Shown here: positions 59,424-63,542 of the stretch, in pieces
Position numbering within the stretch: position 1 is the stretch's first letter
How the letters are laid out: each line of letters begins with the position of its first letter
Origin: Pedobacter sp. JY14-1
GTDB taxonomy: Bacteria > Bacteroidota > Bacteroidia > Sphingobacteriales > Sphingobacteriaceae
Reading direction: 5' to 3'
Length of the DNA: 64,000 nucleotides
Assembly: GCF_029269825.1 (NCBI RefSeq)
Contig: NZ_JARJHU010000009.1
Location: forward strand, 601 to 64,600
The notes under the pieces: model-generated
Databases searched by the model: none
Told to the model about the DNA's origin: nothing
Seen by the model: the letters and a program-made list of their open reading frames with translations, nothing else
Made by a program: the position numbers and the translations under genes

Positions 59424-59504
59424 GGCAGATACCTGTACGCTTGCGTGATATACCTGTTACCACAGCCCAAAGGTTACTTTATTTAAAAAACAAACATACG
59501 TAAG

Positions 59505-59512
59505 TATTTTTG
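59505..59512 (+). promoter_or_regulatory. -7 element before the PAS-DHp-XRE gene
   Basis: TATTTTTG fits TAnnTTTG and lies 34 bases before the chosen ATG 59546, with a TTTA at 59482-59485 as a weak -33 (19-base spacer). It argues against a TTG start at 59510. Confidence 0.5.
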
Positions 59513-59545: not shown

Positions 59546-61132
59546 ATGCATGCAGATAAATCTTTAGGGAACCACTCAGACGCGGATGAACGGAACTATA
59601 AGCTGCAGTTACGCGAATACCAGAAAAGGATATCCAATATTCTGGAGAGCTTTACAGACGGCTTTTTTGAGGTCGATCAGGATTGGATAGTAACCTATTT
59701 CAATAAGGAAGCAGAGCGGCTTCTTTCGCTTTCCCGTACAGAGATTATCGGCCAGAACTTATGGCAGGTGTTCAGGGAGGCGATTCCCTTAAGATTTTAC
59801 AGCGAGTACCACAGGGCCGTTAAAGAAAACGTCTCTGTGCGTTTTGAAGAATATTTTCCACCGAAAGACCTTTGGGTAGAAGTTGCTGCTTTTCCATCCG
59901 GTCAGGGGCTTTCGGTTTATTTTAAGGACATCACCGAACGTAAGAAAGCACTTGAGCTTTTAAATCAAGAGAAACAGAAATACAGTGAACTGTTCAATTT
60001 CAGTCCTGTACCACAATGGGTATATGATCTGGATACCGGCCGTTTCCTTGATGTCAATGAAGCTGCAGTCAGTCAGTACGGATATCAGCGTGAGGAATTC
60101 CTGAACATGAACATCAGGGACATCCGACTACCTGAAGACATCCCTTCATTGGAACGCATCCTGACAGAGGATGTAAAAGCCGGAGCCCATAGCAAAAGCT
60201 ATGTACGGCATAAAAAGAAAGACGGCGAGCTCATTTATGCCCTTGTCGAAGGCAATTCCATCAGCTTTGAGGGATATAACGCCCGGCTGGTCATGGCAAT
60301 AGACCGGACCAAGGAGGTAATGGCCGAGAATTCAATGGCAGAAAGCATAGCGAGGTTTGATATTGTATCCAAAGCAACCAGTGATGCCATCTGGGACTGG
60401 GATATCGTTTCAGGAACTATAGTCTGGAACCAGGGCATCAGGGGCATCTTTGGATACCGGCAGACCACGTATAGCGAGGCCTGGTGGATGAGTAAGGTCC
60501 ATCCGGATGATCTGGAACTCGTGACAAGTCAGATGAACCGGCTGATAGAAAAGAAAAAACAGCGGCTTAAGGTGAGTTACCGGTTCCAGTGCGCAGACGG
60601 CGAATATAAAAATGTACTGGACAGGGCTTTTATTATATTCAACAAAGAGGAAGAGGCCGTCAGGATGATCGGTTCTATGCAGGACATTACCGACCAGATC
60701 AAACAGATGAAGGAAATAGAGGCCCAGAATAATCGGCTAAGACAAATCTCCTGGATACAGTCCCACAAGGTCCGGGGGCCCTTAGCCAGGATCATCGGCC
60801 TGGCATCCTTAATGTCAGAAGAAACACTGTCCTCAAATGAGAAAACTGAATTTGCAGGCGATCTTAAACATGCAGCATATGAACTGGATAAAGTAGTTGA
60901 GGAGATCGTAGACAGAACTGAATATGACCACAATCTCAAAATAACCGTTATCGCACTCAATCTAAGGAATTTAAGAATCCTAAAGGGCTGGACCCAGAAA
61001 CAAGTTGCAGAATGGCTCCAGATTCCTCTGCAAAAGTACCTGAAATGGGAACATGCCGATACAGATATCGATTATTTAATGCTATTGCAAATAGCACATC
61101 TTTACGAGATCCCTGTAATTGAGCTAATGTAG
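59546..61132 (+). CDS. PAS-PAS-PAS sensor with histidine-kinase-like dimerisation helix and XRE HTH, no ATPase domain
   Basis: 528 residues. Three PAS domains at about 30-135 (ILESFTDGFFEVDQDWIVTYFNKEAERLLSLSR), 145-255 (FSPVPQWVYDLDTGRFLDVNEAAVSQYGYQREEFLNM) and 270-388 (AIWDWDIVSGTIVWNQGIRGIFGY). Then a DHp-like helix, ISWIQSHKVRGPLARIIGLASLMSEE...YELDKVVEEIVDRTEY, with His407 at the phospho-acceptor place but HKVRGP instead of HELRTP. No HATPase domain follows; instead residues 472-528 form a Cro/CI-type HTH (LNLRNLRILKGWTQKQVAEWLQIPLQKYLKWE). It could be a one-component regulator or a phosphotransfer partner of the kinase encoded 70 bases later. Architecture unusual. Confidence 0.85.
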   Translation: MHADKSLGNHSDADERNYKLQLREYQKRISNILESFTDGFFEVDQDWIVTYFNKEAERLLSLSRTEIIGQNLWQVFREAIPLRFYSEYHRAVKENVSVRFEEYFPPKDLWVEVAAFPSGQGLSVYFKDITERKKALELLNQEKQKYSELFNFSPVPQWVYDLDTGRFLDVNEAAVSQYGYQREEFLNMNIRDIRLPEDIPSLERILTEDVKAGAHSKSYVRHKKKDGELIYALVEGNSISFEGYNARLVMAIDRTKEVMAENSMAESIARFDIVSKATSDAIWDWDIVSGTIVWNQGIRGIFGYRQTTYSEAWWMSKVHPDDLELVTSQMNRLIEKKKQRLKVSYRFQCADGEYKNVLDRAFIIFNKEEEAVRMIGSMQDITDQIKQMKEIEAQNNRLRQISWIQSHKVRGPLARIIGLASLMSEETLSSNEKTEFAGDLKHAAYELDKVVEEIVDRTEYDHNLKITVIALNLRNLRILKGWTQKQVAEWLQIPLQKYLKWEHADTDIDYLMLLQIAHLYEIPVIELM

Positions 61133-61202
61133 GAACAGACCATAACCTACATACAGAAATTGTCTATCTATTTTAGTATATTTCCTCCATATTTTTAGCA
61201 GG

Positions 61203-63542
61203 ATGCTCAGCCCGTACGCCCAACAAACCATGGTAAACACCTTGCCGATTGCAGCTTGTGTGTTTACAGGTCCTGATCATATTATTGAAGCTGTAAACCA
61301 ACAGATGCTTGCGATCTGGAATAAAGATGCCACGGTAATTGGTAAACCCTTACTTGAGGCCGTTCCAGATGCCGGCCGTAATGGTTTTTCAGAATTTCTG
61401 ACGAGGGTTTACCAGACCGGGGACCAATGTCGTAATCCTGAGGGCCAGGAGATGACATTGATTAAAGGGAAACCTGAACCGATTTATTTCGACTATTCTT
61501 TTAAGCCCCTATGTGACCGCGAAGGGTTAGTCTATGGTGTGGTAAGCACTGCTGTCGATATCACCGCACGTGTAAAAGCCGTCTTTGAACTGGAGCAAAC
61601 GATCGAGGAACTGGCCGCTACTAATGAAGAACTCAGTGCACTCAATGAAGAATACCTTTCGTTAAACGAAGAGCTGGAGGCCGGTAGTGAAGAACTAAGA
61701 GCTACAAATGATGAAATGTTTGTGGTCAGAGAAGCGCTCGAGAAATCGCTCGCAGAACTTGAGGATTCAGAGGAGCGCCTGCTTTTAGCTGCTGATGCTG
61801 TAAATCTCGGTACGTTCGATGTAGATCTTCAGAAGCGCATGATCGTCACTTCAGGACGTATGGATAAGATTTTTGGTTTCCCGGAAACAGCAGCTTTAGC
61901 AGACTATGAAAATGCCATACATGAAGAAGACAAAAGTATTCGCGAGCGCGCTATGGAACGTGCCATGCAAAATGGGCAGCTATTCTACGAAGCCAGGCTG
62001 GTCAGACCAGACGGCGGCATTATATGGGCCAGGGTGGAAGGTAAGGTATTGCACAACCAGCTAGGACAACCTGTACGCATCATCGGAACTGTATTTGATT
62101 TTACAGAACATCGCCATGATAAAGAAATCCAGCGCAAACTTAAGGCGTTAGCCGACAACAGTGTCGACCTCATGGCGCTCCTGGAGCTAGACGGAAAAAA
62201 CAGCTATATCAATGAAGCTGGTAAAAAGCTGCTTGGTTTTACGAGCGATCTGGAGGTACAGGAAACTCCGATTTCCGAACTTCATACGCCGGAAGACTTT
62301 ATTTATGTTCAGGAACAGGTACTGTCTTCTGTGATGAGCCAGGGCAAGTGGGATGGTGTTATGCAAGTACGGCACCTGCAAACTAAGGAAGTATTTCCCG
62401 TTCTGAATTATACTATACGGATCGATGATCCGCTATCCGGAAAACCGATAGGAATAGGGGCAATCATGCGTGACCTGAGGCCAGAACTAGCCGCTAAGAA
62501 GGCCCTTGCCGACAGCGAACAAATGCTAAGGAACGTGACCTCGGCAGCACCTACGGCGTTATGGCTGGCCGATCAAACAGGCAGTCTTACTTATGTGAAC
62601 CAGACTTGGACGGACTGGACCGGACTTACCCTGGAAAAAAGCAGGAAGGTCAGCTGGCTGGAGATAGTACATCCTGAAGATTTGCAGCGTATCACAGAAA
62701 TCTACCTGAATGCCTTAAATAAGGAACAGGCTTTTGAAGCAGAGTACCGGACTATCGACGCTGCAGGATGCCTCAGGTGGTTTTCCACAAGGGGAAAGCC
62801 TCAGGTTAACAGTGACCAGCATTTCAGCGGCCATGCAGGCGTGTGTATAGATATTACCAGTCAGAAAGAACTTCAAAAACAAAAAGATGATTTCATCAGC
62901 ATCGCCAGTCATGAACTGAAGACGCCTATCACCAGTTTGAAGGCAGCGATACAATTACTAAATAAATACGACATCCAGTCGGCAAACCCGCTTGTTCCCA
63001 AACTTTTGTTACAAGCCGGAAAAAGCGTAGACCAGGTGAGTGCCCTGATTGATGACTTGCTAAATGTCAGCAGGCTACAGCAGCAACAACTGAAACTTAA
63101 CAAAACAAAATTCATCCTTGGAGAACTTCTGACCAGTTGTGCCAGCCCTATCGAGTTTGCGAGCAGACAGGAAGTCCGGATCAGCGGAGACATCGATCTG
63201 GAAGTCTTTGCGGATGAGCATCAGATCGCGCAGGTCGTTACCAATTTCCTTACCAATGCCATCAAATATGCTCCAGATTCCTTAGTTATAGAAGTTCGGG
63301 CAGAGCAGCAGGACGGTCATCTAAGAGTGTCGGTTACAGACTATGGCCAGGGTATTCCACCCAACCGTTTAAAGAATTTGTTTGAACGCTTTTATCGTGT
63401 AGAGGAAACCATTCATCAGGCATCCGGACTGGGACTCGGCCTGTATATCAGCGCAGAGATCATCCAGCGGCACGGTGGTAAGATAGGTGCCGAAAGCGAG
63501 CTTGGTAAGGGAAGTACCTTCTGGTTTAGCCTGCCGCGGTGA
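61203..63542 (+). CDS. Multi-PAS sensor histidine kinase
   Basis: 779 residues, no membrane segment, so cytosolic. PAS domain at about 10-120 (NTLPIAACVFTGPDHIIEAVNQQMLAIW), a coiled coil at 125-190 rich in repeated EEL/NEE (ELAATNEELSALNEEYLSLNEELEAGSEELRATNDE), three further PAS domains up to about 555, HisKA with FISIASHELKTPITSL (His570), and HATPase with N box NFLTNAIKYAPD, G1 DYGQGIP and G2 GLGLGLYI. It ends at residue 779 with no receiver domain. A response regulator is not in the window; the PAS-XRE protein next to it is a candidate partner. Confidence 0.96.
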   Translation: MLSPYAQQTMVNTLPIAACVFTGPDHIIEAVNQQMLAIWNKDATVIGKPLLEAVPDAGRNGFSEFLTRVYQTGDQCRNPEGQEMTLIKGKPEPIYFDYSFKPLCDREGLVYGVVSTAVDITARVKAVFELEQTIEELAATNEELSALNEEYLSLNEELEAGSEELRATNDEMFVVREALEKSLAELEDSEERLLLAADAVNLGTFDVDLQKRMIVTSGRMDKIFGFPETAALADYENAIHEEDKSIRERAMERAMQNGQLFYEARLVRPDGGIIWARVEGKVLHNQLGQPVRIIGTVFDFTEHRHDKEIQRKLKALADNSVDLMALLELDGKNSYINEAGKKLLGFTSDLEVQETPISELHTPEDFIYVQEQVLSSVMSQGKWDGVMQVRHLQTKEVFPVLNYTIRIDDPLSGKPIGIGAIMRDLRPELAAKKALADSEQMLRNVTSAAPTALWLADQTGSLTYVNQTWTDWTGLTLEKSRKVSWLEIVHPEDLQRITEIYLNALNKEQAFEAEYRTIDAAGCLRWFSTRGKPQVNSDQHFSGHAGVCIDITSQKELQKQKDDFISIASHELKTPITSLKAAIQLLNKYDIQSANPLVPKLLLQAGKSVDQVSALIDDLLNVSRLQQQQLKLNKTKFILGELLTSCASPIEFASRQEVRISGDIDLEVFADEHQIAQVVTNFLTNAIKYAPDSLVIEVRAEQQDGHLRVSVTDYGQGIPPNRLKNLFERFYRVEETIHQASGLGLGLYISAEIIQRHGGKIGAESELGKGSTFWFSLPR

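Follow-up and report, generated by a model that had tools for sequence, protein, structure and literature searches.

The stretch of DNA analysed here, called the window below, comprises 64,000 nucleotides of Pedobacter sp. JY14-1. It holds a gene for a protein with three PAS domains, a HisKA-like DHp hairpin and a Cro/CI (XRE) helix-turn-helix (HTH), followed on the same strand by the gene of a PAS histidine kinase (Table 1). The reading frame of the first gene is open upstream of its ATG to a TTG at 59510. Two operator candidates were considered and dropped: a palindrome at 59490 was equalled in 82 of 300 shuffles, and the 7-base inverted repeat ATGTAGG-12-CCTACAT, which spans the stop codon (61127-61152), had a counterpart in 61 of 300 shuffled copies.

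Table 1. Features of the PAS-DHp-XRE locus, in positions of the window
Feature	Position	Strand	Basis or remark
PAS-PAS-PAS-DHp-XRE gene, 528 aa	59546-61132	+	ATG 59546, stop 61130-61132
PAS domain 1, about residues 28-133	59627-59944	+	Pfam PAS 28-99, PAS_4 33-133; model
PAS domain 2, about residues 141-262	59966-60331	+	TIGR00229 141-262, PAS_8 145-200; model
PAS domain 3, residues 292-377	60419-60676	+	Pfam PAS_3; model
HisKA-like DHp hairpin, residues 382-458	60689-60919	+	Pfam HisKA 406-458 below cut-off; model; group alignment
His407, candidate phospho-acceptor in HKVRGP	codon 60764-60766	+	Sequence; His kept in relatives
Predicted single helix, residues 430-480, DHp alpha2 into HTH alpha1	60833-60985	+	Model
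Cro/CI (XRE) helix-turn-helix, residues 472-527	60959-61126	+	Pfam HTH_19, HTH_3; model; Foldseek
Neighbour PAS histidine kinase, HisKA + HATPase_c	61203-63542	+	70 bases downstream; Pfam

The domain order given in a preliminary description of this DNA, three PAS domains and a DHp with His running directly into an XRE HTH, was confirmed by Pfam and by structure models. PAS families exceeded their own cut-offs at three places of the 528-residue protein, HisKA stayed slightly below its cut-off (E 3.2e-5, 24.3 bits against 26.9), and both HTH_19 (472-523, 30.4 bits against 30.2) and HTH_3 (473-527, 25.8 bits against 23.0) passed theirs; when the last 74 residues were scanned alone, the two HTH families matched at E 3.6e-8 and 4.3e-7, respectively. 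The Pfam scan of the whole protein returned no HATPase family at E<=1, no Hpt domain (PF01627) and no receiver domain (Response_reg). Since the chain ends 121 residues past His407 and 57 of these belong to the HTH, there is no room for a hidden HATPase; scan and remaining length together rule it out, and the absence of an ATPase, as described before, holds. Equally correct was the remark that the HKVRGP box has no acid, as Lys408 occupies H+1; H+4 is Gly instead of Thr/Asn. In the HisKA kinases that have been tested, the acid at H+1 is needed for kinase activity and T/N at H+4 for phosphatase activity (PMC3510030). The protein thus has neither the HATPase_c domain nor the acid at H+1 that mark a sensor histidine kinase of the HisKA type, and it resembles nonenzymatic HK-like proteins except that its DHp is not C-terminal. 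Its HTH_3/HTH_19 domain places it among the XRE proteins, a class that binds DNA in dimeric form, and such binding is predicted for it.

A full-length AlphaFold2 model (47 alignment rows, mean pLDDT 86.8, pTM 0.51) showed good three PAS folds and a good DHp hairpin, with DHp helices at 382-408, 410-423 and 430-475, the last ending at 475, and a poor HTH (blocks of 50-77). The low HTH confidence probably results from XRE rows misaligned onto the DHp, as was the case in alignment A2 and probably also in A1, A3 being correct. A second model (m18034092443e), covering residues 383-528, was built from an alignment that contained 20 XRE rows in correct register and no DHp relatives; it reached HTH block means of 89-97 and has one helix, 430-480, leading from the DHp into the HTH, at a mean pLDDT of 70 at the join. 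With Foldseek, the HTH of this model superposes on C.AhdI, DdrO, ClgR, ImmR, BldD and SinR at 1.0-1.8 A rmsd and a target TM of up to 0.88; the E-values are 3e-3 or weaker, none below 0.001, because the domain is short. Pfam scores and fold matches together rule out a chance match, and the C-terminal HTH structure expected in the preliminary description is confidently predicted and matches solved XRE proteins. Sequence searches of the PDB gave no match for the HTH at E<=0.01 and a weak one for the DHp (E 0.03). For the full-length model the best PDB matches by E-value were LOV-PAS-HK and, in first place, the triple-PAS transcription factor PpsR (4hh2), whose HTH was not part of the match; TM-scores were low, as is usual for chains of several domains. 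Each model represents a single chain, and we infer dimerisation, as we do the helix coupling, DNA binding, phosphorylation and direction of regulation considered below.

By sequence similarity, the PAS-DHp part falls into a large group of Bacteroidota proteins that have a DHp and no ATPase. The window protein had matches in 53 of the 59 relatives' genomes searched, and 48 out of 395 genomes from the class matched its C-terminal 146 residues (E<=1e-9). From 93 loci 74 distinct DHp frames were obtained, five of them kinases with an ATPase match. The other 69, all ending 51-71 residues past the His, bear out the earlier statement that Bacteroidota have PAS proteins ending in a DHp; the window protein runs on for its 121. 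His and Arg(+3) are present in all 69. As 14 of these frames were found only via a pattern that demands the His, the other 55 were used for the H-box counts, which gave an acid at H+1 in 11 and T/N at H+4 in none; the motif reader required R or K at +3 and P at +5, and no frame failed it. In a control search the H-box was masked in the query, which yielded 62 matches in 22 of the 59 genomes, one being the window itself. His and Arg(+3) recurred in 60 of 60 frames counted, and also in a broken frame (L141); of the 60, 15 have an acid at H+1, one has Thr/Asn at H+4 and 56 have Pro at +5. Three DHp relatives (L143, L147, L183) read HKIRDS, with the Pro at H+5 replaced and His and Arg kept. The lack of the acid is thus shared by much of the group and no peculiarity of the window protein. 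Conservation of His407, which had been put forward in the preliminary description as a check, is borne out. A His that is kept while the rest of its box drifts argues for use of the His beyond shape, although a structural role is a possible alternative, Arg(+3) being equally kept.

The surroundings of such genes point towards receivers. In a survey of 35 stretches with 33 DHp-only frames, a kinase, receiver or XRE frame lay within 500 bases of 12: a small receiver gene (<=170 aa) in 10 cases, a kinase in five and an XRE gene in one. In two of the ten receiver cases the receiver gene is on the opposite strand (L097) or truncated by a contig end (L109); L108 and L109 are closely related. By hand estimate, from the 14 such frames of the Pedobacter genome itself, about 0.1 small receivers would be expected by chance in 33, a figure generous to the phosphotransfer case as signalling genes cluster. 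The single XRE neighbour (L122) was set aside, its HTH being unrelated to that of the window. At L102:19-5310, L095:3218-7027 and L117:8413-12519 a kinase, a small receiver and a (receiver-)PAS-DHp gene adjoin on one strand; these sets look like phosphorelay operons, L117 and L102 in the order kinase-receiver-DHp. In addition, 14 of the 69 ATPase-less frames carry an N-terminal receiver (one, L077, by partial match). The Pedobacter genome has one Hpt match over the cut-off beside 66 receivers, which leaves room for carriers of the DHp type. Conserved His, receiver neighbours and receiver fusions, among them the frame L204 described at the end, suggest that the DHp of the window protein is probably a phosphotransfer module.

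The joining of an HTH to such a protein was rightly called unusual, as no second DHp-HTH fusion appeared in searches of genomes, plasmids and, by pattern, an 84,980-species collection. With the C-terminal 146 residues as query, only the protein's own match among 395 genomes of the class extended past position 100; 399 genomes of the family returned only the fusion itself at E<=1e-16, and in the seven matched among 395 genomes of the phylum at E<=1e-15 the HTH was covered by the own match only (the genome sets overlap, and 9-10 candidates per genome were scored). Two plasmid records matched, both over the DHp only. The pattern of DHp plus HTH at similar spacing retrieved 15 stretches, all DHp proteins ending soon after; its DHp half fits 38 of 58 independently chosen frames, it could miss fusions built with a different linker or HTH, and the collection may lack records of the own genome. 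With the HTH alone as query, 378 of 399 genomes gave XRE matches, and among the matches listed all but that of the window sit in frames of 81-181 aa. Compared with 20 free-standing Sphingobacteriaceae XRE segments (frames of about 110-140 aa), the window HTH is 33-44% identical; these proteins differ in being unfused, in other recognition-helix letters and, in the six inspected, in a further helical-looking C-terminal tail, which the window protein lacks. Open-licence literature, subscription papers lying outside this search, yielded no paper that treats a DHp-XRE fusion or this group of Bacteroidota proteins, and the parts of PMC10468136 at hand do not settle whether either has already been described.

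Known systems resemble the window protein in parts. Spo0B and ChpT keep a degenerate ATPase-like domain, and together with PhyT they are unlike the window protein in this and in having no HTH. The likeness of these three, which are dimeric histidine phosphotransferases derived from kinases, lies in the degenerate-kinase origin and in a DHp His that transfers from and to receivers (PMC5898713). PpsR of Rhodobacter shares three PAS domains, a C-terminal HTH and oligomerisation through helices (PMC3949515). Its lack of a DHp sets it apart from the window protein. In archaea, 'HisKA, no HATPase' proteins and REC-(PAS)n-HisKA regulators have been described and called unstudied (PMC5847659); they have been proposed to act as phospho-acceptors, in phosphotransfer or as phosphatases (PMC5847659; PMC1183210). 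Like the window protein, these nonenzymatic HK-like proteins have N-terminal PAS domains, a DHp with conserved His and no HATPase; some bear an N-terminal receiver (PMC5847659). The window protein differs in coming from Bacteroidota and in its C-terminal Cro/CI HTH, a domain without mention in the parts of that survey at hand (PMC5847659).

On the computed features, i.e. the domains, the lack of HATPase, the HTH fold and the group-wide His, we propose that the protein is a transcription factor in which an ATPase-less HK-like sensor (PAS-PAS-PAS-DHp) is joined to a Cro/CI DNA-binding domain, a reading to which we assign a probability of roughly 0.6. That it is a dimeric DNA-binding regulator without kinase activity we regard as likely; that phospho-His407 is a working input has somewhat less than an even chance. 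The PAS domains would act as sensors, and the DHp hairpins of two chains would pair into a four-helix bundle. As DHp alpha2 is predicted to run on as HTH alpha1, a change in the bundle would alter the relative position of the two HTH units and with it DNA binding. With no tail behind the window HTH, the DHp bundle in front of it could replace the missing dimeriser. His407 would be a probable second input, receiving phosphate from the phosphorylated receiver (receiver~P) of a phosphorelay, and would thereby give receiver~P an influence on DNA binding. Several points stand against the proposed transcription factor: the acid at H+1 survives in a minority of relatives, no second DHp-XRE fusion attests selection on the joint product, the contig carries no receiver gene, the first full-length model has low confidence in the HTH, the Foldseek E-values of the HTH are weak, and upstream of the gene there is no significant palindrome of operator type.

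An alternative, rather unlikely in our view, is a pure one-component PAS regulator whose DHp serves only as dimeriser and lever, His407 being inherited and idle. Sensor and DNA-binding parts do occur in one protein in PpsR (PMC3949515), the contig of the window has no receiver gene, and in a young fusion the ancestral His would still be expected. Yet the His is invariant across the group where the kinase and phosphatase residues are not, and the window copy retains H, R, P, L and D448, all residues of the group alignment. A DHp used only to dimerise, one of the two readings offered in the preliminary description, is therefore hard to square with a His in every relative read, evidence that belongs to the group and not to the window protein itself. 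These intact invariants, together with a fusion known from one genome only, would also suit a recent deletion or rearrangement that left the HTH as a passenger on an ordinary DHp-only phosphotransfer protein. We consider this improbable, as the HTH core is unbroken, with XRE consensus residues present and no stop or frame break, and no internal start is left, so that the HTH is read only within the fusion.

The other reading offered earlier, that the neighbour kinase phosphorylates His407 in trans, we judge very improbable. The kinase is complete and lies close by on the same strand, as had been described, and may be an operon mate; among the genome's 68 HATPase matches it alone lies on this contig of 211,973 bases, and the 66 listed receiver-domain matches all lie elsewhere in the genome, in line with the earlier statement that no response regulator is near. 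However, phosphorylation of a foreign DHp in trans by a kinase is unusual, and this kinase has a DHp box of its own, SHELKTP, of another type than HKVRGP. Within about 7 kb of its two nearest relatives among the 59 genomes, which are 47 and 44% identical to it, DHp, XRE and receiver frames are all absent; the supposed gene pair thus fails the conservation check, and the kinase does not appear from these neighbourhoods to be a conserved partner. What recurs beside DHp genes is small receivers and not this kinase, which also speaks against it as specific donor.

ATPase-less DHp proteins are common in Bacteroidota and unexplained; their archaeal counterparts have been called unstudied (PMC5847659). 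In a natural DHp-HTH fusion, DNA binding with and without phosphate on His407 would offer a readout for the group, showing whether its DHp domains carry phosphate or act by shape only. If such domains carry phosphate, transcription would be controlled directly by phospho-histidine, outside the usual two-component scheme. The proposed transcription factor may, tentatively, be one switched by phospho-His on a DHp without catalytic activity, combining its own PAS sensors with a backward feed from the receiver~P of a phosphorelay; equally tentatively, it could be described as a response regulator with His in the role of Asp. The data suggest a signal-sensing gene switch made of two known parts, in a combination unmet in the other genomes searched. 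In PpsR the C-terminal HTH is of the Fis type and not XRE.

Among the 60 frames of the masked search, 54 end 50-72 residues past the His and six continue. L155, L184 (by eye only) and L196 are kinases, and L202 is a long kinase, PAS-PAS-DHp-PAS-PAS-PAS-DHp-HATPase, with an inner DHp of the group type (last two domains by eye). L203:2115-3605 on the minus strand encodes GAF-DHp-PAS-PAS without ATPase, its DHp lying mid-chain. The closest parallel is L204:1084-2940 (G048 contig C84), a 619-residue frame with the plan PAS-PAS-PAS-DHp-receiver and no HATPase, in which Response_reg (E 5.9e-17) directly follows the DHp and takes the position of the HTH. This architecture raised slightly, to just under even, the odds we give to a phospho-His step, and under the tentative phospho-His reading L204 would be a sister design. 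With the DHp His and the receiver Asp in one chain, it provides a natural test of phosphotransfer by the DHp.
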